NCBI RefSeq assembly: GCF_004014875.1
Contig: NZ_CP034929.1
Location: forward strand, 3,100,001 to 3,164,000
Reading direction: 5' to 3'
From: Nocardioides yefusunii
GTDB taxonomy: Bacteria; Actinomycetota; Actinomycetes; Propionibacteriales; Nocardioidaceae
DNA length: 64,000 bases
Under the pieces are notes generated by a model. The model saw nothing but the letters and a program-made list of their open reading frames with translations. It did no database searches and was not told the DNA's origin. Below are positions 41,196-64,000 of the stretch, in pieces. Within the stretch, counting starts at the first letter, position 1. Every line of letters starts with the position of its first letter. Position numbers and translations under genes: made by a program.

Positions 41196-41271
41196 GCGGC
41201 TGTAGCTCAACGGATAGAGCATCTGACTACGGATCAGAAGGTTTGGGGTTCGAATCCCTACAGCCGCACCA
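41196..41271 (+). tRNA. tRNA-Arg (anticodon ACG), copy 1
   Basis: Acceptor GCGGCTG/CAGCCGC with CCA encoded, D arm GCTC...GAGC, anticodon stem TCTGA/TCAGA with loop CTACGGA (ACG), T arm TTGGGG-TTCGAAT-CCC. Reads CGT/CGC/CGA after A34 deamination. A TAATCT -10 box lies at 41166-41171. Confidence 0.97.
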
Positions 41272-41279
41272 CACACGAA

Positions 41280-41302
41280 GACCCTCGCCAGCGGCGGGGG
41301 TC
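41280..41302 (+). terminator. Terminator of tRNA-Arg copy 1
   Basis: GACCCTCGCC and GGCGGGGGTC around AGC (one imperfect pair), then TTTCGCATTT. Confidence 0.75.
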
Positions 41303-41426
41303 TTTCGCATTTCCCCTGGCCACACAACTGCCCGGGGGCCACACGCGGAGCAGCCGCCACCCCATCCCCGAATCGCGCATTTCCAGGGCCTTGGGCTAAG
41401 GTTGACGAGTCGCAGCGATGCGGCGG

Positions 41427-41502
41427 GCGGCTGTAGCTCAACGGATAGAGCATCTGACTACGGATCAGAAGGTTTGGGGTTCGAATCCCTACAGCCGCAC
41501 CA
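41427..41502 (+). tRNA. tRNA-Arg (anticodon ACG), copy 2
   Basis: Identical to copy 1 over the whole 76 nt including CCA. Confidence 0.97.
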
Positions 41503-51259: not shown

Positions 51260-51399
51260 TCGCGAGCGCACCCCGTTGCACGGACGGTCCCGCACCTGCA
51301 ACCTGTCCGTCACAGGGATTGGTTAGGGTCGAGGCGCGCGACCCACCGAACGATCCCCGCATCGCCCGATGCTCACAGTCGACACCTTGGAGTCACCCC

Positions 51400-52056
51400 A
51401 TGCCGTTCCTGCTCCGCCTCGAGTTGCCCGACATCCCCGGTTCGCTGGGTCGGGTGGCGAGCGCGATCGGTGAGGCCGGAGCCGACATCGAGGCCATCCA
51501 GGTGGTCCAGAAGACCTCGGCCGGCACGGTCGTCGACGACGTGCTGCTCGAACTGCAGCCCGGCAAGATGCCCGACTCCGTGGTCTCGGCCTGCAGCGCC
51601 CTCGACGACGTCAGGGTGCTGTGGATCAGCCGCTACGCCGCGGGCGGCAACCTGTTCCTCGACCTGGAGATGGTCGAGGAGATCACCGTCGAGCCCGAGC
51701 ACGCCTTCGAGCGGATGCTGAGCCTGATGCCGGTGACGTTCCGCGTCGACTGGGCGGTGCGCGCCCGCCGTGGCCTCGACGGTGTGGTCACCGTCGTCGA
51801 CTCCACCGAGGCTGCACCGGAGACGGTCGAGTGGGTCGAGATCGACTCCCCGGCCCGGATCGACAGCGACGACGAGAACCAGGTCCTGTGCGCGATCCCG
51901 TCCCACGACGAACTGATCGTGGTGGGGCGCCGAGGTGGCCCGGAGTTCCTCGACTCCGAGATCGCCCGGATGGACCACCTCGTGGGTCTGACCCGGTCGA
52001 TCCACCGCACCCACACGGCCAAGGGCACCCCGCCCTCGGGCTGGGTCGCGGACTGA
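51400..52056 (+). CDS. ACT domain-containing protein
   Basis: A 218-residue protein. N-terminal ACT domain: FLLRLELPDIPGSLGRVASAIGEAGADIEAIQVVQKTSAGTVVDDVLLEL, with the classic D-x-P-G-x-L turn for ligand binding. A linker and a second, GAF/CBS-like half follow (ITVEPEHAFERMLSLMPVTFRVDWAVRARRG and HDELIVVGRRGGPEFLDSEIARMDHLV). ATG 51400 with GGAG 7 nt upstream. Related proteins occur near gat genes in actinobacteria and are annotated only as amino acid-binding; an amino-acid sensing role is plausible. Its stop lies 3 nt from the convergent WS/DGAT gene, and no terminator separates them. Confidence 0.82.
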   Translation: MPFLLRLELPDIPGSLGRVASAIGEAGADIEAIQVVQKTSAGTVVDDVLLELQPGKMPDSVVSACSALDDVRVLWISRYAAGGNLFLDLEMVEEITVEPEHAFERMLSLMPVTFRVDWAVRARRGLDGVVTVVDSTEAAPETVEWVEIDSPARIDSDDENQVLCAIPSHDELIVVGRRGGPEFLDSEIARMDHLVGLTRSIHRTHTAKGTPPSGWVAD

Positions 52057-52059
52057 CCT

Positions 52060-53499
52060 TCAGACCACGCTGCTCGGTGCGTCCTCCGGTTGTACCATGG
52101 CCAACCGCGCGAGTTCGGCGAACGACTCCTCCAACGCCTCCCGGAAGTCACCCGGGTGGGCGAGTGCGCGGTCGTGGCCCAGGATCCCGAACGTGAGCAC
52201 GTCGGCGTAGGACCACACCATCACGTTGATCCCGACTCCGTTGGACGGTGGCCCGTCGATGTGGATCCGGGTGAACTCGCGTCCACCGAGCGTGAACGGG
52301 GCGGCCGGGCCCCGGATGTTGGAGACCAGGATCGAGGCGTCGGCGTCGTCGGTGGAGGCTTCGAGGCGCTCCAGGACTCCCGCGACGCCACGTCGGGCCA
52401 GCGCCGGAGGCATCCGGTCGAGCCAGTCCGGGACGAGGTCAGGGCCGAACGCGTCGAGCTGGGCCTTCCCCTCCCGGGCCGTCGCGGAGATGACCCGGAG
52501 ACGTTCCCACGGGTCGGTGACGTCGGTGGCGAGCGTCGTCGTGAACGACCAGAACCGGTTGCCGTGCTGCCGCACCGGAGCGTCGGGGGCCTCGAACGCC
52601 ATCGGGACGGTGGTGAGCAGCGACCGTGACGTGGACGGGTCGAAGTCGGGCTGGTGACGGGCCAGGTAGCGCACGCACGCCCCTGCCATCATCCCGAGGA
52701 CGACGTCGTTGAGCGTCACGCCGGCTGCGTCCTTGACCTGTTTGACCTGTGCCAGCGGCAGTTCGGCCCGGACGTAGCAGCGGCCCGGGCCGAAGGCGTC
52801 GTTGAGCAGGGTGCGGGGTGCCCCTGCTGAGTAGGCGGGGAGCTCGATCTCCGACTCCGCCCTGCGCTCCTTGACGGCTGCTGTACCGCGGCGGGTGCGC
52901 AGCAGCAGCGGCAGCAGGGTCAGCAACGCCAGCAGGTGCGCCCACAACGCAGCCAGAACCAGGCGCACCGTGTGCGGGCGCCGTTCGGGGCGGGCCGGTC
53001 CGGCGTCGTGCGGCGGCGGACAGGTGGCGTCGGAGAAGAGCCGGAGCATGGTCGTCATCGCTCCGACGCCGTCGGCGAGCGCGTGGTGATACTTCATGAC
53101 CACTGCCTGACGGCCCTGGTCGAGGCCGTTGACCAGCCACACCTGCCACAGCGGGAGGTCAGGGTCGAGGTGTTCCTCCGCGAGGCGGGCGAAGAAGGCG
53201 TCCAGGGCCTCGTCCCCTCCGCGCACCGTCGCCTCACGGACGTGCGTGGTCAGGTCAGGCTCACCCGGCGTCCAGGCGACGGGGTGGTGGAGGTTGCCCG
53301 GTACCGGGGTGATCCGCCAGCGCCACGACGGGAGCTCGTCGAGTCGGGACCCGATGTGCCGACGCAGTTCGTCGACGGTGAGCGGATCGGCAGAGGCCTC
53401 CAGCACGCCCACGGCCATCGAGTTCATGGGCTGGGCATGCGTCTCGTCGGGACGTTCCATGATCAGGAACCCGGCGTCCTCGCCGTTGAGCCGGTGCAT
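52060..53499 (-). CDS. WS/DGAT family wax ester synthase/diacylglycerol O-acyltransferase 2
   Basis: A 479-residue acyltransferase of the bifunctional WS/DGAT family, which uses acyl-CoA and a fatty alcohol or diacylglycerol to form storage lipids at the membrane. The start MHRLNGEDAGFLIMERP is the family N-terminus. HHALADG at 138-144 is the catalytic HHxxxDG; NDVVLGMMAGACVRYL, SLLTTVPMAF and NIRGPAAPFTLGGREF are further conserved blocks, with GVGINVMVWSYADVLTFGILG near the end. The ATG overlaps the stop of the upstream paralogue (TGATG), so the two are co-translated. Confidence 0.92.
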   Translation of the reverse strand: MHRLNGEDAGFLIMERPDETHAQPMNSMAVGVLEASADPLTVDELRRHIGSRLDELPSWRWRITPVPGNLHHPVAWTPGEPDLTTHVREATVRGGDEALDAFFARLAEEHLDPDLPLWQVWLVNGLDQGRQAVVMKYHHALADGVGAMTTMLRLFSDATCPPPHDAGPARPERRPHTVRLVLAALWAHLLALLTLLPLLLRTRRGTAAVKERRAESEIELPAYSAGAPRTLLNDAFGPGRCYVRAELPLAQVKQVKDAAGVTLNDVVLGMMAGACVRYLARHQPDFDPSTSRSLLTTVPMAFEAPDAPVRQHGNRFWSFTTTLATDVTDPWERLRVISATAREGKAQLDAFGPDLVPDWLDRMPPALARRGVAGVLERLEASTDDADASILVSNIRGPAAPFTLGGREFTRIHIDGPPSNGVGINVMVWSYADVLTFGILGHDRALAHPGDFREALEESFAELARLAMVQPEDAPSSVV

Positions 53500-55034
53500 C
53501 AGGCCACCTTCGCGCAGGTCGTGCAGGAGAGGCCGTGAACGGCGAGCAGGTTCGCCAGTTCGGCCTCCATCGCGCGGGCGATGCTGCTGGGGTCAGGGAC
53601 GGCGGCCGGGTTGGTGTGGACGCCGCAGGTCAGGACGTCGCCGTAGCCGGTGACGGTGATGTTGATGCCGTTGCCGGAGGTGAGCGGACCGAGCAGGAAG
53701 ACCGACTCGATCGTCCGGCCGTCCAGGGTCCAGCCGCTGCGTGGCACCTTGAGGTTGGAGACGAGGACGTTGAAGTCGGGTGGGTTCTCCCCCGACGCAG
53801 CCTTCTCCCCCATGCCTCGGGCAGCAGCGGCCGCGAGCCGTGGCGGGATCCGGTCGAGCCACGTGGGAATCAGGGTGCGCCCCTGGAGTTCGAGCTGGAG
53901 CTTGGCCTCACGCGCGTGGTCCGCGGTGGAGCGGAGCCGGTCGCGGGGGTCGTCGAGGTGGGTGGGCAACAGCGCGTAGTAGTTGACGAAACAGTTGCCG
54001 CGCAGACGTGGTCGGGCCCCGACGGGGTCGTTGCCCAGCGGCACGTTGACCACCAACGGGGCCTCAGGCAGCGCGTCGCGCTCGGCGAGGTGGTCGCGCA
54101 GCGCACCCGCGACGAGGCTGACCACGACGTCACTGAGCGAGACCCCCACTGCGTCGCGCACCTTGCGCACGTCGTCGAGGTGGAGGTGAGCCCGGCCGAG
54201 GCGGCGTTCGGTGTCGCGGGAGATGTCGAGGACCGTGCGGGGAGCATCCCCTGCCATCCCCGGGACCCGGTGCTCGGCACGGGCCCGACGGGCCTTGACC
54301 GCCTTGGCTCGTCGGCTCGTCCGCAGCACGAGCGCGGGAATGGTCGTGAGCAGCACGACCAGACGCAGCAGAGCCACGACGAGGAGCACGATCCCGTTGG
54401 GTGGTCGCTGTCTGGCGTGGTCGGCGGGCAACGCCGGCGAGGGCACCTCGATCGCGCGGTCGTCGAGGAGTTCGGTGAGCATCGCGATGGTCGCGGTGCC
54501 GTCTCCCAGGGTGTGGTGGAACCGGTGGACGAGGGCCTGACGTCCGTCGGGGAACCCGTCGAGCAGGGTGACGTCCCAGAGCGGGCGGTCGAGCGGCAGG
54601 TGGCTGGCGGTGACCTCGGCCGCGAGCCACTCGTCGAGCATCCGGTCCCCCGCGGCCCGTACGTCGAGGAACTCGGCCTCACCGGAGGGCGCAGGCATCG
54701 TGGCGTGGTGGACGTGGTCGTCCAGCACGAAGCGGTGATCGTCGGCCCAGACGGCGTGACCGAGCCCTCCGGGGACGTGGTGCAGTCGTCGGTGCAGGTG
54801 CGGCACACGGTCGGCGCGGGCCGCGAGGCGTTCCAGGAGCGCGTCGCGGGTCAGCGCGGGGCTGCCGTGCTCCGGTGCGGCAAGCAGGACGACGTCGACG
54901 CACGCCGAGGTCTGCACGGCACTCTCGACGTAGAGGAACCCTGCGTCGACGCCACGGACACGTCGCCCCTGTCGACGGCTCGCCGGCGGCATGCCGGGCG
55001 TGATGTTCAGGTTCTCCCGTGACGCTGCAGCCAC
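53499..55034 (-). CDS. WS/DGAT family wax ester synthase/diacylglycerol O-acyltransferase 1
   Basis: A 511-residue paralogue of the next gene. VRGVDAGFLYVE is the family N-terminus, after an extension of about 25 basic residues. HHTLGDG at 173-179 is the catalytic HHxxxDG; LSDVVVSLVAGALRDHLAER, LVVNVPLG and NVLVSNLKVPRSGWTL are conserved blocks; GNGINITVTGYGDVLTCGVHTNPAAV is the C-terminal block. GTG start at 55034 with AGGAAGGAA 7 nt upstream. Transcribed away from the large synthase gene. The two WS/DGATs beside a PUFA-like synthase suggest its product may be esterified into neutral lipid; this is inference. C-terminal Cys pair SCTTCAKVA is unusual. Confidence 0.92.
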   Translation of the reverse strand: MAAASRENLNITPGMPPASRRQGRRVRGVDAGFLYVESAVQTSACVDVVLLAAPEHGSPALTRDALLERLAARADRVPHLHRRLHHVPGGLGHAVWADDHRFVLDDHVHHATMPAPSGEAEFLDVRAAGDRMLDEWLAAEVTASHLPLDRPLWDVTLLDGFPDGRQALVHRFHHTLGDGTATIAMLTELLDDRAIEVPSPALPADHARQRPPNGIVLLVVALLRLVVLLTTIPALVLRTSRRAKAVKARRARAEHRVPGMAGDAPRTVLDISRDTERRLGRAHLHLDDVRKVRDAVGVSLSDVVVSLVAGALRDHLAERDALPEAPLVVNVPLGNDPVGARPRLRGNCFVNYYALLPTHLDDPRDRLRSTADHAREAKLQLELQGRTLIPTWLDRIPPRLAAAAARGMGEKAASGENPPDFNVLVSNLKVPRSGWTLDGRTIESVFLLGPLTSGNGINITVTGYGDVLTCGVHTNPAAVPDPSSIARAMEAELANLLAVHGLSCTTCAKVA

Positions 55035-55526
55035 TGGCCGTTCCTTCCTCGACGAACCGGTCTCTCCCGTGACCGGACCGCGAGCATGGCATGCGAAGTG
55101 GCGTGCGTCACCCCCGATTCTGGGCCGTTGTCACAGCGGCGACCGACGTTGGCGTCTGGCTCGGGCAGCGCCTTCGACCAGTGGTTTTGTCTGATCGCGA
55201 CCCCATTTGTTCCACGGTGACAGCGGTCGCCCTGACGCCATTCCAGTGCGCCAACGAGTCGTATTTACGCCCAATGGGGGATGCCCCGAGACCCCACGTC
55301 CGGAGCGGGCTGGACCAGCCCCCTTGATACGTCCCAAGGGCTTCATTGCTTTGGTGTATGAGCCTTGACCACCACTCCGAACAGCGGTTTACAGTCGCAA
55401 TTCACCACGAAGTGACCGGCCCCACACGAACCGCCTCGGCGGCCGACGGGGAGGACGAACGATCTTGGGAGGGATCCTCGTCCGCACCGGTCATCAGGGA
55501 CTGCAACAGGGAGAGGGAGTCCCGCA
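55035..55526. other. Divergent promoter region between the WS/DGAT pair and the synthase
   Basis: About 490 nt with no supported gene and noticeably lower GC (55180-55410) than the flanks, as expected for regulated promoters. No tight palindrome seen. See the promoter candidate at 55365. Confidence 0.55.
55365..55393 (+). promoter_or_regulatory. Candidate sigma70-type promoter of the synthase operon
   Basis: TTGACC (55365-55370) and TTTACA (55388-55393) with a 17-nt spacer, about 130 nt upstream of the synthase start. Confidence 0.35.
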
Positions 55527-58500
55527 ATGCCGCACGTCACCACCGCCGGAGCCGCCGCACACCACAGCGCCGCTCACCACAGCGCCGCTCACCACAGCGC
55601 CGCTCACCATCGCACCGAGACACCGGAACTGGTCGTCGCCGCTGACCCGGTCGGCCGCACCAACGCCGCACTCGTCACCGCTGCCCAGCGCGCCGGTGGC
55701 ACCGGCCTGGTCGACGCACCCGACCTCACCGCACTGCAGGACGTGCTCGCCGACCTCGCCCGACGGCGGAGCACCGGAGGCTGGATGCGCCCCGGCGCAG
55801 GCCTCCTCTCCCGCGGGGTCGGGCACGACGACGCCCTGGACACCGCCCTCGACGACGCGTTCAGCGCCGTCGTGCTCGACGCGACCCTGCTCGACGACCT
55901 CGGCGCCCCTTGGGAAGACACGGCCGCCCTGTGGCGCACCCCCCGCCGCCGGGTCCTGGCCCAGGTGACCTCGCGCGACGCAGCCGTCGCTGCCGTCGAG
56001 GGTGGGGCCGACGGTCTGGTCGTCGTCGGCTGCGAGGCCGGAGGACGCGTCGGCACCACCCAGTCCTTCGTGCTACTGCAGCAGACCGTCGACCTCGGCG
56101 TCCCCGTCTGGGTCCGCGGCGGGACCGGTCTGCACACCACCGCTGCCGTCGTCGCCGGCGGTGGTGCAGGCGTCGTCGTCGACACCCAGCTCGGACTGCT
56201 CCGCGAAGCCGCACTGCCCGCCACCACCGCCGCCGCGCTGCGCCTGATGGACGGCTCCGAGACGCGCGTGGTCGGCGGACACCGGCTCTACACCCGCCCC
56301 GACCTCGAGGTCGCCGCACTCGACGACGCCGTCACCAGCGCGGAGGTCGCGGCCCGCCTCGGCGCCGACCTGCACTCCGACCTCGTCCCCCTCGGACAGG
56401 ACTGCGGCGTCGCCTCCGACTGGGCGACCCGCTTCGTCACCGTCGGCGGCGTCGTCCAGGCCCTGCGCGAGTCCGTGACCACCCACCTCGACGCGCTCCG
56501 CGCTGGCGACCCGCTGGCTCCCGGATCGGCGCTCGCCGCCACCCACGGCACCCAGTACCCGATCGCCCAGGGCCCGATGACGCGGGTCTCGGACCGCGCC
56601 GAGTTCGCCGCTGCCGTCGCCGAGGGTGGCGGTCTGCCTTTCCTCGCCCTCGCGCTGCTGCCCGCTGCCGAGGTCCGTTCCCTGCTCGCCGAGACCGCAG
56701 CCCTGCTGGGCGATCGCCCCTGGGGCGTCGGGCTGCTCGGTTTCGCCCCCGCCGACCTCCTCGCCGCCCAACTGGAGGTCGTCACCGAAGTGTCACCGCC
56801 GTTCGCGCTGATCGCCGGTGGCCGCCCCTCGCAGGCCGCGGCGCTGGAGGCCGACGGCATCGCGTCGTACCTGCACGTCCCTTCGCCGGGCCTGCTCGAC
56901 GCCTTCCTCGCCGACGGCGCCCGTTCGTTCGTCTTCGAGGGACGTGAGTGCGGCGGCCACGTCGGGCCGCGTTCGTCGTTCGCGTTGTGGGAGGCCCAGG
57001 TGGAGAGGCTGCTGCAGGTCAACGACCCGCAGAACCTGCGGATCCTGCTCGCCGGTGGCATCCACGACGCCCGCTCGGCCGCGATGGCTGCCGCCGCCGT
57101 CGCGCCGCTCGCCGCCCGCGGCGCCCAGGTCGGCGTCCTGATGGGCACCGCCTACCTCTTCACCACCGAGGCCGTGGCCTCCGGCGCGATCCAGGAGACC
57201 TTCCAGGAAGTCGCCGTCGACTGCGAGCGGACCATGCTCGTGGAGACCGCCCCCGGCCACGCGACCCGTTGCGTCGAGACCGAGTTCGCGCGCGCGTTCG
57301 CCGAGCGCAAGGCCGAACTGGAGTCTGCCGGGGTCGACGCCAAGAGTCGGTGGGCCGAGCTGGAGCAGCTCAACCTGGGCCGCCTCCGGATCGCTTCCAA
57401 GGGACTGGTCCGCACCGACGGCACACTCCAGAGCGTCGACGTGGACCGTCAGATCGCCGAGGGCATGTACATGATCGGCGAGGTCGCGACCCTGCGCGAC
57501 GAGGTCACCGACATCGCCGCCCTGCACGCCTCCGTCAGCGTCGGCAGCGTCTCGTGGGTGCACGAACACCTCGGCCTCGACGTCGAGACGGACGACGAGG
57601 TCGCCACCGAGGCCGACCCGTTCGACATCGCGATCATCGGCATGGAGACCTTCCTGCCCGGCGCGGTCGGTACGGAGCAGTTCTGGGCCAACGTCGTCGC
57701 CGGCACCGACCACGTCACCGAGGTTCCCGCCGAGCGATGGGACACCGACCTCTACTTCGACGCCGAGACCTACGACAAACGTCAGGGCGGACGCACCACC
57801 CCGTCGAAGTGGGGCGGTTTCGTCGACGCGATCGGCTTCGACCCGCTCTCGCACGGCATCCCGCCGGCCTCCCTGGCAGCGATCGAACCGGTCCAACTGC
57901 TCGCCCTCGAGGTGGCCTCGCGTGCGCTGGCCGACGCCGGGTACGCCCAGCGTTCCTTCGACCGTGAGCGCGCTTCGGTGGTCTTCGGCGCGGAGTCGGG
58001 CAACGAACTGGGCGGCGCCTACGGGATCCGCGCGTTCCTGCCGCAGCTCTTCGGTCAGGTTCCCGACGAGCTGGAGAACTGGCTCCCTTCCCTCACCGAG
58101 GACTCCTTCCCCGGCGTCCTGGCCAACGTGATCGCCGGCCGGATCGCCAACCGACTCGACCTCGGCGGGGTCAACTACACCGTCGACGCCGCCTGCGGAT
58201 CGTCGTTGGCCGCACTCGACGCCGCCTGCAAGGAACTGCGTCAGGGGTCCTCCGACCTCGTCATCGCCGGTGGCGCCGACCTGCACAACGGCCTCAACGA
58301 CTACCTGATGTTCGCCTCCGTGCACGCGCTCTCCCCGACCGGACGCTGCCGCACCTTCGACGCCGACGCCGACGGCATCGCGCTCGGTGAGGGCATCGCC
58401 GCGGTCGTGCTCAAGCGTCGCGTCGACGCCGAGCGTGACGGCGACCGGATCTACGCCGTGATCGACGCCGTCGCCGGATCCTCCGACGGCCGGCACCTGG

Positions 58501-61500
58501 GCCTCACCGCTCCCCGCAAGGAGGGGCAGCAGCGTGCTGTCGCGCGCGCCCTGGAGGCGTCCGGTGTCTCGCTCACCGAGGTCGGTCTGGTCGAGGCGCA
58601 CGGCACCGGCACCGTCGTCGGGGACCGCACCGAGATGGCGACCCTGACCGAACTCTTCGCCGAGGCCGACGTCGAGCCGGGATCAGTGGTCCTGGGCTCG
58701 GTGAAGTCCCAGATCGGGCACACCAAGTGCACAGCCGGGCTCGCCGGACTCGTGAAGGTCGCCAAGGCCCTGCACCACGCGGTGCTCCCGCCGACGATCA
58801 ACCTCGACGACCCCAACCCGTACTACGACGCCCAGGCGTCCCCGTTCCGCTTCCACGACACTGCACGCCCCTGGGCCGCGGCCACGCGTCGGGCCGGGGT
58901 GAGCGCCTTCGGCTTCGGCGGCACCAACTTCCACGCCGTCGTCTCCGCCTACGAGGGCGGGGACCGTCCCGCGCACAAGGTCGCGCAGTGGCCCGCCGAA
59001 CTGTTCGTCGTCCGGGCGGTCGACGAGGCCACAGCAGCCAATCGGCTCGACGACCTGCGCGCCTTGGTCGACGGCGTCCTCGCCTCCGACCCGGGCGCCC
59101 AGCGTCACCGTCTGCGTGACCTCGCCCGGACCGTCTCGACCTCGGGCCGTGGTGCAGTGCGGGCAGCCTTCGTGGCCGGGTCGTTCCTGGAACTGCGCCA
59201 GGAACTCGACCGGCTGCTCGACGAGGCCGGGTCGTACGGCCTACCTGCTGCCCCTGACGCCGCCGAACGCGGCAAGGTCGCGTTCCTCTACCCGGGTCAG
59301 GGCTCCCAGCGTCCGGGCATGCTCAACGACCTCTTCGTGACGTTCTCCGCACTCGACGACGTCGCCGCGCTCGCGGAGCCGTGGGCAGCGGAACTGTTCC
59401 CGCCGGCCGGTTTCACCGCCGCCCAGCGCGCCGCCCAGCGGGCCGCGATCACCGCCACCGAAGTCGCCCAGCCGACCCTCGGGGTAGCAGCGCTCGCGAT
59501 GACCCGGATGCTCCGCAGCGTCGGCGTGCAGCCCGACGTCGCCGGAGGCCACTCCTACGGTGAGCTCGCGGCGCTGGCTGCTGCCGGCGTGATGGACGAC
59601 GCCACCCTGCTGCGACTCTCCGCGGTGCGCGGCCAGGCCGTGCTGGACGCCGTCGAGGCGTCGGGCGGAGACCCGGGCACGATGGCTGCGGTCTCGCTGA
59701 CGATCGAGGAACTGCTGCCGCGTCTGACCGCCTTCGACGGCGTCGTGGTGGCCAACCACAACGCCCCGCGTCAGGTCGTCGTCTCGGGCCCGACGGCGAG
59801 CGTCCACGCCGCGGTCGAGGCGTGGGAGGCCGACGGGGTCCGCGCCACGCTGATCCCGGTGGCCTGTGCCTTCCACTCCCCGCTCGTGGCCCGCGCGAGC
59901 GAGTCGCTGGCTGCTGAACTCGCTGCTCTCGACCTCTCCGCGCCGCAGTTCCCGGTGTGGTCCAACGTCACCGCGGAGCCGTACCCCGGTGTCGGATCCA
60001 GCACCGGCGACGACGCGGTCGAGGTCCTCAAGGGCCTGCTGTCCTCGCAGGTCAGCGACGGCGTCCGGTTCGTCGACCAGATCGAGTCGATGTACGCCGC
60101 CGGCGTCCGCGTCTTCGTCGAAGCAGGTCCCGGACGGGTCCTCGGCGGCCAGGTCGCAAAGATCCTCGGCGACCGCCCGCACACCGTCGTCGCGACCGAC
60201 GTGAACGGCGAGAACGGGGTCCGCCGCTTCCTGCAGGCAGTCGCCGATCTGGCGATGGCCGGCGTCGAGGTGGACACCCGCAGCCTCTTCCTCGAACGCG
60301 CCGAGGACGTCGACCTGCGCACCTGGCCACTCAAGGCCCCTGGCTGGACCGTCAGCGGCGCGTTCGTGCGTCGGGCCGACGGCACCGTGCTTCCCAACAG
60401 TCACCAGCCGGCCGACACGATGCCGGCCCTCTCCCCCGTCGCCACACCGGAGGTCTTCACGATGAGCAGCGCCCCGGTCGAGACCTCGTTCGACGACGTC
60501 TCCGCTTCCCCCGTTCTCGCCGGGACCGGAGCCGACGTGGTCCTCACCGAGTACCTGCGGTCGATGCGTCAGGTGGTCGCGGCCGAGCGTGACGTCGTGC
60601 TCCGCTACCTGGGAGCCACCCCGGCACCTGCCCCGTCCGGCGCCGTGACGGCCGCTGCTCCGTCCAGCGCCGTGACGGCAGCTCCGGCCTCGGTCACGGC
60701 TGCTTCGGCCGTTGCTCCGGCTGCCCGGCAGGCTGCTGCTCCGGCACCTGCTTCCCTGGTTCCGGCCCAGCGGGCGCCCGAACCCGTCGCGGCGGCACCA
60801 GCTGCGACCGTGGACCTCCTGCTGGCGGTCCAGGAAGTCGTCTCCGAACGCACCGGCTACCCCGTCGACATGCTCGAACCCGACCTCGACCTCGAGGCCG
60901 ACCTCTCCATCGACTCCATCAAGCGGATCGAGATCGTCGGAGAACTCGCCCAGAAGATCGGACTGGGCTCAGGCGGACCGGGCGCAGGCGGCGCCGAACT
61001 CGACGAGAACGTCGTCGAAGAACTCTCCCGCCACAAGACCCTCGCCGCGATCGTCACCTGGATCGAAGGGATGCAGGGTGTGAGCAGCGCGCCCGGCACC
61101 TCTGCCCCGGCGGCCGCCACCGACGGCGCTGCTCCGGCTGCCGCGACGCCCACGGCCACGGCCACGGCCACGAGTCTCAGCGGCGACGCGTTGCTGCTGG
61201 CGGTCCAGGAAGTCGTCTCCGAACGCACCGGCTACCCCGTCGACATGCTCGAACCCGACCTCGACCTCGAGGCCGACCTCTCCATCGACTCCATCAAGCG
61301 GATCGAGATCGTCGGAGAACTCGCCCAGAAGATCGGGCTGGGCTCAGGCGGACCGGGCGCAGGCGGCGCCGAACTCGACGAGAACGTCGTCGAAGAACTC
61401 TCCCGCCACAAGACCCTCGCCGCGATCGTCACCTGGATCGAAGGCCTGAGCACGCCCGCTGCTGTCGCGTCGTCCGTCTCCGCCTCCGCCACGACGTCCG

Positions 61501-63077
61501 TGGGTGACGCCGTCGTGGTTCCTGCCCAGCCCACCCCGTCAGCAGCGGCACCGGAGCAGGTCATGGACCTCTCCACCGGTCTGTACGAGGTGGTCGTCGA
61601 ACCCCTCGGGCCGGTCGTCTCCCTGGGCCGGATCAGTGGCTCCAGCGTCGCCCTGGTCGAGGGACACTCAGACCTCACGCCGGTGGTCGCCTCCGCTCTC
61701 ACCGAGCGCGGTGCCCGCGTCGTCCGAGTCCCGTTCGAGGAGGTCAGCGCCCACACCGCGTTGCTGGCCGAGGTGGACGTCGTCGTTGATCTCTCCACCA
61801 CCTCGGGCGACCCCCGGATCGACGCCCGCGACGTGTTCGCCGCCCTGCGTCCTGCCCTCCTGGGTCGGGCCCAGCGTCTGCTCGGCGTCGGTGTGGCCGC
61901 CCACGCCGCCGACGACGCCGTCGGGGCAGCCGTCCCGACCGGCCTACCCGGTCTCTTCCGTTCCTTGGCCCGTGAGCGTGAAGACCTCCTGGTCCGCGCC
62001 GTGGAGGTGACCACCGGCGACCTCGCCGGCGACCTGCACGCGCTGGCCGTCTGCCTCGTCGACGAGCTCCTCGACCTCGATGCCCCTGCGGCGGTCTCCT
62101 GGACCGGCGGGGTCCGTACCGCCCGCGTGGCGGGCCCGGCGATCGACCTCGAACAGCGAGTTTCGTCGCTCGGTCTGGATGCAGAGTCCGTCGTCGTCCT
62201 GACCGGCGGCGCCCGGGGCATCACCGCCCGGATCGCGGAGGGCATCGCCCGGACCACACCGTGCCGTCTCGTCCTGGTGGGTCGTTCGCCCGCCCCGTCG
62301 GGCGCCGAGGACCCCCGTCTTCGCGGCACCGACGACGCGCTCGCGCTACGCCGACGGATCCTCGAGAACGCCTCCTCCGACGGCGTGAAACTGACCCCCG
62401 CCGAGGTCGAGAAGCAGGTCTCCGCGGTGATCGCCGACCGCGAGGTGACCGCGACCCTGGCGCTGCTGCGCGAGCTGGGTTCGGATGCTGAGTACGTCTC
62501 GATGGACGTGCGTTCCCCCGGCTTCGGTGCACTGCTCGACGCCCTGCACGGCACCTTCGGACGCCTCGACGGCGTGATCCACGGCGCTGGCGTCCTCGAC
62601 GACCGTCTGGTCCGCGACAAGACCGCCGAGGGCTTCGATCGGGTGTTCGGCACCAAGGTCGAGGGCGCCCGCGCGATCCTGGACCGGCAGCACCTGGGGA
62701 TGCGGTTCGTGGTCCTCTTCGGCTCGGTCTCCGGGGTCTTCGGCAACAAGGGCCAGGTCGACTACGCGGCCGCCAACGACGCCCTCGACACCCTCGCCCA
62801 GATCCACGACGGCCGGCACGGCTGCCACGTGGTCTCCCTGGACTGGGGTCCGTGGGCCGGCGGCGGCATGGTGTCGCCCGAGCTCGAGCGGGAGTACGCA
62901 CGCCGCGGCGTCGGCCTCCTCGACTCCGACGACGGTGTCACCGCACTCCTCAACGAGGTGGCCGGTGGTCGGGGCCGTCCCAGCCAGATCGTGGTGATGG
63001 CCGGCGAGCCCGCCGCCTTCGCACCGTCAGTGGCAGGTCGGGGCCGTCGTGCTGCCGACACGGTCGGACAGCCGTGA
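55527..63077 (+). CDS. PUFA-synthase-like iterative type I polyketide synthase (ER-like/NMO - KS - AT - ACP - ACP - KR)
   Basis: A 2516-residue megasynthase. Order: His-rich N-terminus (8-30); flavin-dependent nitronate-monooxygenase/PfaD-like region in two parts (about 35-280, VVVGCEAGGRVG; about 340-690, TQYPIAQGPMT, RECGGHVGPRSSF, LLAGGIHDARSA); KS (about 697-1145) with Cys890 in VDAACGSS, VEAHGTGT and KSQIGHTKCTAG; AT (about 1250-1590) with Ser1343 in GGHSYGE and CAFHS; an Ala/Pro linker; two ACPs with Ser1797 and Ser1922 in SIDSIKR, as in PUFA synthases; KR (about 2220-2490) with TGGARGIT, Ser2400 and Tyr2413. No DH here. All catalytic residues present. ATG 55527 after GGGAG. GTGA overlap with the next KS gene. 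The flavin domain is fused rather than separate as in marine Pfa systems. Product unknown. Confidence 0.93.
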   Translation: MPHVTTAGAAAHHSAAHHSAAHHSAAHHRTETPELVVAADPVGRTNAALVTAAQRAGGTGLVDAPDLTALQDVLADLARRRSTGGWMRPGAGLLSRGVGHDDALDTALDDAFSAVVLDATLLDDLGAPWEDTAALWRTPRRRVLAQVTSRDAAVAAVEGGADGLVVVGCEAGGRVGTTQSFVLLQQTVDLGVPVWVRGGTGLHTTAAVVAGGGAGVVVDTQLGLLREAALPATTAAALRLMDGSETRVVGGHRLYTRPDLEVAALDDAVTSAEVAARLGADLHSDLVPLGQDCGVASDWATRFVTVGGVVQALRESVTTHLDALRAGDPLAPGSALAATHGTQYPIAQGPMTRVSDRAEFAAAVAEGGGLPFLALALLPAAEVRSLLAETAALLGDRPWGVGLLGFAPADLLAAQLEVVTEVSPPFALIAGGRPSQAAALEADGIASYLHVPSPGLLDAFLADGARSFVFEGRECGGHVGPRSSFALWEAQVERLLQVNDPQNLRILLAGGIHDARSAAMAAAAVAPLAARGAQVGVLMGTAYLFTTEAVASGAIQETFQEVAVDCERTMLVETAPGHATRCVETEFARAFAERKAELESAGVDAKSRWAELEQLNLGRLRIASKGLVRTDGTLQSVDVDRQIAEGMYMIGEVATLRDEVTDIAALHASVSVGSVSWVHEHLGLDVETDDEVATEADPFDIAIIGMETFLPGAVGTEQFWANVVAGTDHVTEVPAERWDTDLYFDAETYDKRQGGRTTPSKWGGFVDAIGFDPLSHGIPPASLAAIEPVQLLALEVASRALADAGYAQRSFDRERASVVFGAESGNELGGAYGIRAFLPQLFGQVPDELENWLPSLTEDSFPGVLANVIAGRIANRLDLGGVNYTVDAACGSSLAALDAACKELRQGSSDLVIAGGADLHNGLNDYLMFASVHALSPTGRCRTFDADADGIALGEGIAAVVLKRRVDAERDGDRIYAVIDAVAGSSDGRHLGLTAPRKEGQQRAVARALEASGVSLTEVGLVEAHGTGTVVGDRTEMATLTELFAEADVEPGSVVLGSVKSQIGHTKCTAGLAGLVKVAKALHHAVLPPTINLDDPNPYYDAQASPFRFHDTARPWAAATRRAGVSAFGFGGTNFHAVVSAYEGGDRPAHKVAQWPAELFVVRAVDEATAANRLDDLRALVDGVLASDPGAQRHRLRDLARTVSTSGRGAVRAAFVAGSFLELRQELDRLLDEAGSYGLPAAPDAAERGKVAFLYPGQGSQRPGMLNDLFVTFSALDDVAALAEPWAAELFPPAGFTAAQRAAQRAAITATEVAQPTLGVAALAMTRMLRSVGVQPDVAGGHSYGELAALAAAGVMDDATLLRLSAVRGQAVLDAVEASGGDPGTMAAVSLTIEELLPRLTAFDGVVVANHNAPRQVVVSGPTASVHAAVEAWEADGVRATLIPVACAFHSPLVARASESLAAELAALDLSAPQFPVWSNVTAEPYPGVGSSTGDDAVEVLKGLLSSQVSDGVRFVDQIESMYAAGVRVFVEAGPGRVLGGQVAKILGDRPHTVVATDVNGENGVRRFLQAVADLAMAGVEVDTRSLFLERAEDVDLRTWPLKAPGWTVSGAFVRRADGTVLPNSHQPADTMPALSPVATPEVFTMSSAPVETSFDDVSASPVLAGTGADVVLTEYLRSMRQVVAAERDVVLRYLGATPAPAPSGAVTAAAPSSAVTAAPASVTAASAVAPAARQAAAPAPASLVPAQRAPEPVAAAPAATVDLLLAVQEVVSERTGYPVDMLEPDLDLEADLSIDSIKRIEIVGELAQKIGLGSGGPGAGGAELDENVVEELSRHKTLAAIVTWIEGMQGVSSAPGTSAPAAATDGAAPAAATPTATATATSLSGDALLLAVQEVVSERTGYPVDMLEPDLDLEADLSIDSIKRIEIVGELAQKIGLGSGGPGAGGAELDENVVEELSRHKTLAAIVTWIEGLSTPAAVASSVSASATTSVGDAVVVPAQPTPSAAAPEQVMDLSTGLYEVVVEPLGPVVSLGRISGSSVALVEGHSDLTPVVASALTERGARVVRVPFEEVSAHTALLAEVDVVVDLSTTSGDPRIDARDVFAALRPALLGRAQRLLGVGVAAHAADDAVGAAVPTGLPGLFRSLAREREDLLVRAVEVTTGDLAGDLHALAVCLVDELLDLDAPAAVSWTGGVRTARVAGPAIDLEQRVSSLGLDAESVVVLTGGARGITARIAEGIARTTPCRLVLVGRSPAPSGAEDPRLRGTDDALALRRRILENASSDGVKLTPAEVEKQVSAVIADREVTATLALLRELGSDAEYVSMDVRSPGFGALLDALHGTFGRLDGVIHGAGVLDDRLVRDKTAEGFDRVFGTKVEGARAILDRQHLGMRFVVLFGSVSGVFGNKGQVDYAAANDALDTLAQIHDGRHGCHVVSLDWGPWAGGGMVSPELEREYARRGVGLLDSDDGVTALLNEVAGGRGRPSQIVVMAGEPAAFAPSVAGRGRRAADTVGQP
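55560..55604 (+). repeat. 15-bp tandem repeat (x3) in the synthase N-terminus
   Basis: Three perfect copies of CACCACAGCGCCGCT, followed by a partial fourth, encode His-His-Ser-Ala-Ala repeats at residues 12-26. Copy number is likely to vary between strains by slippage. Confidence 0.9.
60819..61444 (+). repeat. Near-identical tandem ACP coding repeat
   Basis: Two 251-bp segments (60819-61069 and 61194-61444, offset 375 bp or 125 codons) differ at one synonymous base (a GGA/GGG Gly codon), while the linker between them is unrelated. Each encodes one full ACP. Recent duplication or gene conversion. Confidence 0.95.
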
Positions 63078-64000
63078 GCCGACGCCGACACCGCACCGGT
63101 GCGGATCCGCACCGCGACGACGTGGCCGTCGTCGGGGTCGCGGGTGTCTTCCCCGGCGCACCGGACGCGGCGACGTTCTGGTCCAACGTGAAGAACGGCG
63201 TCGACGCGATCAGCGATGCCCCGGCCCAGCGGTGGGACCCGGTCTTCCACGACGTCGACGGCAAGAGCGCGGACCGGTTCTACACCCGACGTGGCGGCTT
63301 CGTCGACGAGGTCGCGACCTTCGACCCGTTGGCGTTCGGGATCATGCCGAACGCTGCCGAGTACGCCGAACCCGACCAGTTGCTGGCTCTCTCCGCGGCG
63401 GCGGCAGCACTGTCCGACGCCGGTGACGTGCACGCACGCCTCGACCCCTCACGTGTCGCGGTGCTGCTGGGACGCGGCGGTTACCTGGGTGACGGCGTCG
63501 CCCGCCTCGACCAGCGGGTCCGCACCGCCCAGCAGGTCGTCGAGGTGCTGCGAGCAGTGGTCCCCGGCGTCACCGAGGGGCAGTTGCGTCAGGTCCGGGA
63601 GCAGTTCCACGACGCGTTGGGGCCTGAGCGCCCTGAGGCTTCGATCGGTCTCGTCCCCAACCTCGCGGCGTCACGGATCGCGAACCGTTTCGACTTCCAC
63701 GGCCCGGCCTACACCGTCGACGCAGCGTGCGCGTCGTCGTTGATCGCGGTCTCCCAGGCCTGCGACCTGCTGCGTTCGGACCGCGCCGACCTGGTGCTCG
63801 CCGGCGGCGTCCACCACTGCCACGACCTCACGTTGTGGAGCGTCTTCACCCAACTCCGCGCCTTGTCCCCCTCGGGCGGGATCCGCCCGTTCTCCGCCGA
63901 CGCCGACGGGATCCTGATCGGCGAGGGCACCGGCATCCTGGCGCTGCGTCGTTGGGAGGACGCCGTGCGTGACGGTGACCGGGTCTACGCGGTGATCCGC
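63074..64000 (+). CDS. Second PUFA-synthase-like ketosynthase gene (partial, N-terminus)
   Basis: The first 309 codons of a gene that continues past the window. GTG 63074 overlaps the synthase stop (GTGA). After a short basic leader comes a KS domain: DDVAVVGVAGVFPGAPDAATFWSNVKNGVDAISDAPAQRWDPVF, RFYTRRGGFVDEVATFDPLAFGIMP, active-site Cys219 in VDAACASS and LRALSPSGGIRPFSADADGILIGEGTGILAL. The WDPVFHD block and the overall look are PfaA/PfaC-like. It probably adds the second KS/CLF and the hot-dog dehydratases missing from the first protein, but that part is not visible. Confidence 0.9.
   Translation, partial: MSRRRHRTGADPHRDDVAVVGVAGVFPGAPDAATFWSNVKNGVDAISDAPAQRWDPVFHDVDGKSADRFYTRRGGFVDEVATFDPLAFGIMPNAAEYAEPDQLLALSAAAAALSDAGDVHARLDPSRVAVLLGRGGYLGDGVARLDQRVRTAQQVVEVLRAVVPGVTEGQLRQVREQFHDALGPERPEASIGLVPNLAASRIANRFDFHGPAYTVDAACASSLIAVSQACDLLRSDRADLVLAGGVHHCHDLTLWSVFTQLRALSPSGGIRPFSADADGILIGEGTGILALRRWEDAVRDGDRVYAVIR

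Follow-up and report, generated by a model that had tools for sequence, protein, structure and literature searches.

In 2011 the Type M secondary-lipid synthases figured among the types whose products were uncharacterized (PMC3098273). Their members come from Actinosynnema, Frankia, Renibacterium and Streptomyces avermitilis (PMC3098273, PMC13291983), and a 2026 description of fused pfaDA and pfaBC-PPTase genes that resemble the Renibacterium synthase still called the latter uncharacterized (PMC13291983). Here I describe a gene cluster of similar build that begins within a 64,000-nucleotide stretch of Nocardioides yefusunii (contig NZ_CP034929.1, positions 3,100,001 to 3,164,000; hereafter the window) and is completed beyond its end in this single-contig 3.32-Mb genome. 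It comprises two synthase genes, PKS1 and PKS2, genes for a stand-alone acyl carrier protein (ACP), an alpha/beta hydrolase and a GT1 glycosyltransferase (GT), and two divergent genes for WS/DGAT O-acyltransferases, and I consider it reasonably probable that these seven genes arrived together by horizontal transfer and serve to make a long-chain glycolipid, O-acylated in this branch. No product assigned to this gene set was found in the open-licence literature searched. The features are listed below; coordinates above 64,000 are counted on past the window, genome coordinates are those of the window plus 3,100,000, and start codons are the first possible ones in each reading frame.

52060..53499, minus strand: WSb, WS/DGAT O-acyltransferase, 479 residues, HHALADG (PF03007, 1.2e-47; PF06974)
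53499..55034, minus strand: WSa, WS/DGAT O-acyltransferase, 511 residues, HHTLGDG (PF03007, 9.6e-39), one base in common with WSb
55035..55526: divergent intergenic region of 492 bp between WSa and PKS1, candidate shared promoter (open reading frame table)
55527..63077, plus strand: PKS1, 2516 residues, two enoyl reductase-like barrels (ER1, ER2), ketosynthase (KS), acyltransferase (AT), two ACPs and ketoreductase (KR), in the order ER1-ER2-KS-AT-ACP-ACP-KR (Pfam, NCBIfam, structure model of residues 1-700)
55626..56276, plus strand: ER1, first FabK/nitronate monooxygenase (NMO)-like TIM barrel, its GGH replaced by GGR, predicted to be non-catalytic
56517..57596, plus strand: ER2, second FabK/NMO-like TIM barrel, with an intact ECGGH, predicted to be an enoyl reductase
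57624..59060, plus strand: KS1, C-H-H intact (PF00109, 4.9e-64; PF02801; KAsynt_C_assoc)
59283..60266, plus strand: AT1, GHSYGE motif (PF00698, 1.3e-40)
60816..61070, plus strand: ACP1, DSIKR motif (PP-binding)
61191..61445, plus strand: ACP2, DSIKR motif (PP-binding), its 85 residues identical to those of ACP1
62190..62858, plus strand: KR (PF08659, 5.7e-32)
63074-67780, plus strand, cut at 64000 by the window end: PKS2, 1568 residues, KS2, AT2, dehydratase (DH) and phosphopantetheinyl transferase (PPTase), in a GTGA overlap with PKS1 (Pfam, open reading frames)
67746-68141: stand-alone ACP, overlapping PKS2
68145-69107: alpha/beta hydrolase
69109-70314: GT1 glycosyltransferase
51319-52056: ACT-domain gene, left neighbour of the block

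By architecture and PPTase motifs, PKS1 and PKS2 appear to fit the Type M secondary-lipid synthases, a kind without an assigned product: the flavin reductase region is fused N-terminally to KS-AT-ACPs-KR, a PfaBC-like protein carries the PPTase, and PKS2 shows the motifs P1a (five matches to a loose pattern) and P1b' (once, as VSISH) and neither P0 nor P1b, the PUFA-associated ones. P1b' and P1a without P0 or P1b is the pattern described for Types M-T (PMC3098273), and a fused pfaDA-like and pfaBC-with-PPTase pair is described for clusters resembling the Renibacterium one (PMC13291983). The comparison with published members is one of descriptions only, and it also brings out differences: the flavin part in the window is a tandem FabK-like pair and not PfaD by sequence, and neither the ACP-hydrolase-glycosyltransferase tail nor the WS/DGAT pair is mentioned in the accessible portions of PMC3098273 and PMC13291983. 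The tandem head, the tail and the WS/DGAT branch are what would be new relative to the Type M kind.

A first-pass annotation of the window had placed the WS/DGAT pair, PKS1 and the second KS gene in its overlap (at 63074) where open reading frames indeed lie, and had called the whole a megasynthase of the secondary-lipid type, a description borne out by the KR, the DH, the flavin-reductase-like barrels and the synthase's own PPTase. It had gone on to propose a polyunsaturated fatty acid (PUFA) as a possible product, and this is where the synthases part ways: PfaABCD (Types A and B) shares the KS-AT-tandem ACP-KR core, whereas the window has one PS-DH rather than two DH, an intact KS2 rather than a KS-CLF (chain length factor) pair, a fused, FabK-like reductase, and a PPTase without P0 and P1b. 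On PKS1, where Pfam places NMO at residues 335-594, KS at 700-1093, AT at 1253-1580, two PP-binding stretches, and KR at 2222-2444, the best NCBIfam model is TIGR02813 (PfaA), yet it stays below its cut-off (909.6 versus 1010.1 bits); the nearest solved KS to KS1 is 7zma (461 bits). PKS2 reads KS-AT-DH-PPTase by Pfam, and KS2, which is followed by an AT, keeps its C-H-H triad (DAACAS, EAHGTAT, GHAMPAAG) and is therefore not a CLF. Its DH region carries PF14765 (PS-DH) with the His and an LLDNAGQ motif; only the PS-DH and PKS_DH_N models match there when the segment is searched with E up to 1, no DH model matched when the whole protein was searched, and the DH-PPTase segment found no solved structure at E<=0.01. 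Motifs are intact in both KS, both AT, the DH, the hydrolase (GNSFG), the ACP and both WS/DGATs. Past 64 kb, where the first-pass annotation had advised looking for FabA-like dehydratases, a second AT or CLF and a PPTase, AT2 and the PPTase are present, and Pfam and motif searches of the synthase domains found neither a FabA-like dehydratase nor a CLF. I therefore reject a PUFA as the leading product, because the DH is of PS-DH type, KS2 is C-H-H, the PPTase lacks P0 and P1b, and the PfaA score is below cut-off.

What points to a glycolipid instead is the tail. The species-genome scan returned 25 related loci (16 Lentzea, Umezawaea, Kutzneria, Sciscionella, five Acidimicrobiales bins, one of which is from the Ilumatobacteraceae, and one cyanobacterium), to which I added five further loci, namely two congeners (G023, G028), two from the same order (G052, G054) and one Streptomyces plasmid, and six loci from a phylum survey. 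In 23 of the 25, PKS2 is followed by ACP and hydrolase, and the same 23 have a GT; of the two without the tail, L011 is a 3.9-kb fragment and L025 the partial match from the cyanobacterium. All three tail genes occur in the five further loci, and in the survey ACP and hydrolase are found in 6/6 and the GT in 5/6. Over the 36 other loci together, 33 have a GT after the synthase, which makes a glycolipid a better guess than a PUFA deposited as triacylglycerol; the first-pass annotation had itself named a glycolipid pathway downstream as speaking against its proposal, and a conserved GT1 gene is what stands there. The cyanobacterial locus (Hormoscilla, L025 10001-15906) has the two-barrel head and KS-AT in common with the window, and the ACP-hydrolase-GT tail was not found at it.

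GT1 itself carries PF06722 (1.2e-18) and PF00201 (7e-16), EryCIII-like and UDPGT C-terminal domains, and among solved chains is closest to the UDP-glucosyltransferase YjiC, with CalG2 also a near match. Its best NCBIfam model is MGT (TIGR01426, 184.4 bits, below the cut-off of 260), and the matches include OleI-like and macrolide-inactivating models, all likewise below their cut-offs; they invite the reading that GT1 serves self-protection, as macrolide-inactivating enzymes do, and that the lipid itself carries no sugar, which I regard as very improbable given that the GT keeps the same position in loci from two classes, beside a synthase predicted to make a lipid chain. The solved chains nearest to the hydrolase by sequence are esterases, and a fold search (model pLDDT 74) returned generic esterases and lactonases among the best 50 of 1510 matches at E<=0.001. 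An ACP, an alpha/beta hydrolase and a GT1 are also the ingredients of RhlA/RhlB rhamnolipid logic. That candidate was not supported, the hydrolase lying near esterases, GT1 being of YjiC type and chains named 'Rhamnosyltransferase' scoring far lower. Heterocyst glycolipid (hgl) islands likewise pair an iterative lipid synthase with a glycosyltransferase, HglT, which adds a glucose headgroup (PMC11804610); the legend of the island figure lists a thioester reductase (PMC11804610), whereas the window has an alpha/beta hydrolase and a stand-alone ACP after the synthase, and no thioester reductase domain occurs in the block genes, the rest of the genome not having been searched for one. Fifteen hglE-KS clusters are reported among 21 Lentzea species (PMC9120177).

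The head of PKS1 deserves separate attention. The first-pass annotation had an NMO/PfaD-like region N-terminal to KS-AT-ACP-ACP-KR, and its position and NMO match held, but there are two barrels rather than one, and among solved structures FabK and NMO chains come nearest by sequence, whereas no PfaD chain matches at E<=0.01. Residues 1-324 alone match NMO at E=1.1e-4 (22.2 bits, the cut-off being 28), the two flavin halves align profile to profile (probability 95.3, E=2.2e-8), and an AlphaFold2 model of residues 1-700 shows two eight-stranded barrels (pLDDT 83.7, pTM 0.87). The FabK model TIGR03151 scores 98.8 bits, below its equivalog cut-off of 453.1, and by these scores the region is best described as a FabK relative, not a FabK. 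ER1 lacks the catalytic histidine in 33/33 loci covering that barrel, while ER2 has it, fused to the synthase, in 35/35. The head has the look of a natural pair of flavin reductases on one chain, one of them catalytic and the other not. Two non-identical flavin reductase barrels also pair in the ERb/ERc heterodimer of Schizochytrium, as two chains that both have GGH and both bind FMN (PMC13311796); in PKS1, where pairing is presumed, the barrels share one chain, are FabK-like, and the first has no histidine. ACP1 and ACP2 are identical in 251/255 nucleotides, and the ACP pairs of two congeners are near-identical within each genome yet differ between genomes, which suggests concerted evolution. 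A His/Ala-rich repeat (AAHHS units) lies at the start of PKS1 (55557-55610), and the true start may be further in.

Searches with the DH-PPTase segment found the cluster in 3/37 genomes of the genus and 7/296 genomes of the phylum, this one included in both counts, and in 2/21 other genomes of the order (genus and order together, 58 of 60 genomes searched). Downstream of GT1 come an F420-dependent reductase and then a naphthoate-synthase-like gene of the enoyl-CoA hydratase family (ECH), and in the 11 of 37 congeners with single-contig genomes the distance from the ACT gene to ECH is 18.8, 17.0 and 28.7 kb in the three with the cluster and 0.1-2.1 kb in seven of the eight without it. The eighth, G012, has 39.9 kb and at least two flagellar genes in the gap (two of five scanned proteins in L055-L057 are flagellar or type III export proteins, FliF-like and an export ATPase), and the ACT-ECH junction may be an insertion hot spot; no tRNA or tmRNA was found at the junction in L003, L004, L048 or L055. 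Of 31 loci, 28 entered a KS1 tree, the exceptions being L025, L028 and L029, in which KS1 is missing or partial. In this tree the three copies of the genus group with three Acidimicrobiales copies (support 100/100), and G052 and G054 with Streptomyces, Kutzneria and Sciscionella (100/96). The block has apparently been carried between distantly related bacteria, presumably into Nocardioides from outside, judging from tree and junction together.

Two side observations concern base composition and tRNA genes. The WSa-PKS1 intergenic region has a GC content of 0.64 against 0.71-0.72 in both adjoining genes. Two tRNA-Arg(acg) genes lie 155 bases apart at 41196-41502, about 10 kb upstream of the junction.

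Both WS/DGAT proteins carry PF03007 and PF06974 above cut-off and an intact HHxxxDG, as first annotated; TIGR02946 scores WSb at 323.1 bits, above its cut-off of 309.95, and WSa narrowly below it at 301.7. Divergent WS/DGAT genes stand beside PKS1 in 4/4 assessable loci of the branch (two in the window genome, two in G028, one of the WSb kind in G023 and two in L006; L007, L011, L028 and L029, whose upstream side is not covered, were left out), and no WS/DGAT is found at the junction in the 8/8 cluster-free complete congeners, which is why the seven genes can be said to behave as one block. The counterparts of WSb in G023, G028 and L006 are 54-57% identical to it and those of WSa 50% (G028) and 42% (L006), so each protein of the window pair resembles its counterparts at the other clusters (42-57%) more than it does its partner (35%) or a third, distant WS/DGAT of the genome (25-26%). 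In L006 the pair shares 46% identity, a closer match than that between its WSa and the WSa of the window. This supports WS/DGATs that are dedicated to the synthase product in this branch, though not essential, and the suggestion that they belong with the synthase stands within the branch and fails outside it, where none adjoins the synthase in the examined stretch of 22 assessable loci (L013 left out). Five of the six survey loci also have none in the 19-20 kb examined; at the sixth, G149 from another family, a single WS/DGAT lies downstream and shares 34-44% identity with those of the cluster.

These numbers bear directly on the first-pass proposal that a long-chain, possibly polyunsaturated acyl chain is stored by the WS/DGATs as triacylglycerol or wax ester, a proposal that would leave the GT incidental. 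A secondary-lipid synthase divergent from two WS/DGAT genes with counterparts in three other branch loci is what that proposal would need, but it is weakened because the synthase occurs without WS/DGATs outside the branch and in those five survey loci, the GT is far more constant, no FabA-like DH/isomerase or CLF was found, and the third WS/DGAT of the genome could do the storage; I hold it to be improbable.

For the glycolipid reading, the following steps can be proposed. PKS1 and PKS2 together would form an iterative type I synthase of Type M, in which the PPTase of PKS2 activates the carrier proteins, malonyl units are loaded by AT1, the lipid chain is extended by KS1 (with KS2) and processed by KR and DH, and reduction falls to ER2; ER1 would be a non-catalytic partner barrel that may take the place of a second subunit, as in a dimeric flavin reductase. 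The finished, presumably long chain, with at least one hydroxyl retained, would pass to the stand-alone ACP, the hydrolase would release or transfer it, and GT1 would glycosylate it, glucose being the most likely sugar; in this branch the two WS/DGATs might then place ordinary acyl groups on hydroxyls left free, which would give an acylated glycolipid.

Actinobacterial lipids of glucose and long hydroxy acids do exist: fattiviracins and cycloviracins, from a Streptomyces and a Kibdelosporangium, consist of glucose and long trihydroxy fatty acids (C22-28 in the table), the sugars of cycloviracin are methoxylated, and glucolipsins belong to the same company (PMC4365757), and no gene cluster for any of the three is evident from paper titles in the open-licence literature. 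The Streptomyces copy (L031 8940-23914) has the complete core. Its GT is followed by a methyltransferase that shares 54% identity with a domain of the protein in the corresponding position in G149, and the locus sits on a linear plasmid of 869 kb, classed as mobilizable, close to IS transposases. A glucosylated polyhydroxy fatty acid dimerised by the hydrolase to a macrodiolide would be a special case of the glycolipid reading, and their probabilities overlap; GT, releasing hydrolase and stand-alone ACP are what such a product would presumably need, and the core occurs in Pseudonocardiaceae as well as on that plasmid, but the block in the window has no methyltransferase, the hydrolase matches generic esterases best, and I consider this rather unlikely. 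The fuller proposal is unlikely too, namely that the five-gene core is the as yet unassigned fattiviracin/cycloviracin glucolipid macrodiolide pathway, spread by plasmid and chromosomal insertion over at least two classes, with an O-acylated form made by the WS/DGATs in the branch of the window and a head that is a novel one-chain pseudo-heterodimeric FabK-type enoyl reductase with one barrel without catalysis. Close after the GT in two genera lie homologous proteins of 353 and 375 residues (L066 14390-15451, L068 489-1616; 36% identity), with no Pfam match at E<=1e-4.

Several observations weigh against the glycolipid cassette. Eleven of the 16 Lentzea loci have no match to the PPTase segment, and all 16 as well as Umezawaea lack the DH aspartate pattern, and these copies might differ in chemistry; G261 has no GT in the 3.5 kb examined after the hydrolase, and the GT could use another substrate or serve self-protection. 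The WS/DGATs are accessory, being missing outside the branch, and cluster GC equals host GC, so there is no compositional sign of transfer and the transfer was not recent. KS2 is absent in G028, where PKS2 has no KS domain (L040 13000-17430) and the genome holds no copy elsewhere, only KS1 and one FabF-like match, as well as from the examined loci of G149 and G246, and therefore one KS may be enough for the synthase. In G246, PKS1 and PKS2 form one 3355-residue frame without KS2 (L066 2023-12090), reading ER-ER-KS-AT-ACP-KR-AT-DH-PPTase. Enediyne-type iterative synthases have the order KS-AT-ACP-KR-DH-PPTase. That frame and the CalG2 match would suit a glycosylated polyene or other non-lipid polyketide, yet the fused reductase barrel with its intact histidine in every locus covering it argues otherwise, no enediyne-type accessory gene occurs among the annotated flanking genes (most flanking genes of the relatives being unannotated), and such a product seems decidedly improbable.

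On balance, the comparisons of sequence mark the cassette as real, conserved and mobile, and as apparently of glycolipid type. Its conserved ACP-hydrolase-GT tail narrows an 'unknown lipid' to a specific guess that can be tested, namely a glycolipid whose gene set is known, and the copies that lack KS2 offer natural experiments on the contribution of a second ketosynthase. Close relatives of the core exist in named, sequenced strains, for example of Lentzea, and the cluster marks a bacterial glycolipid that could be sought directly.

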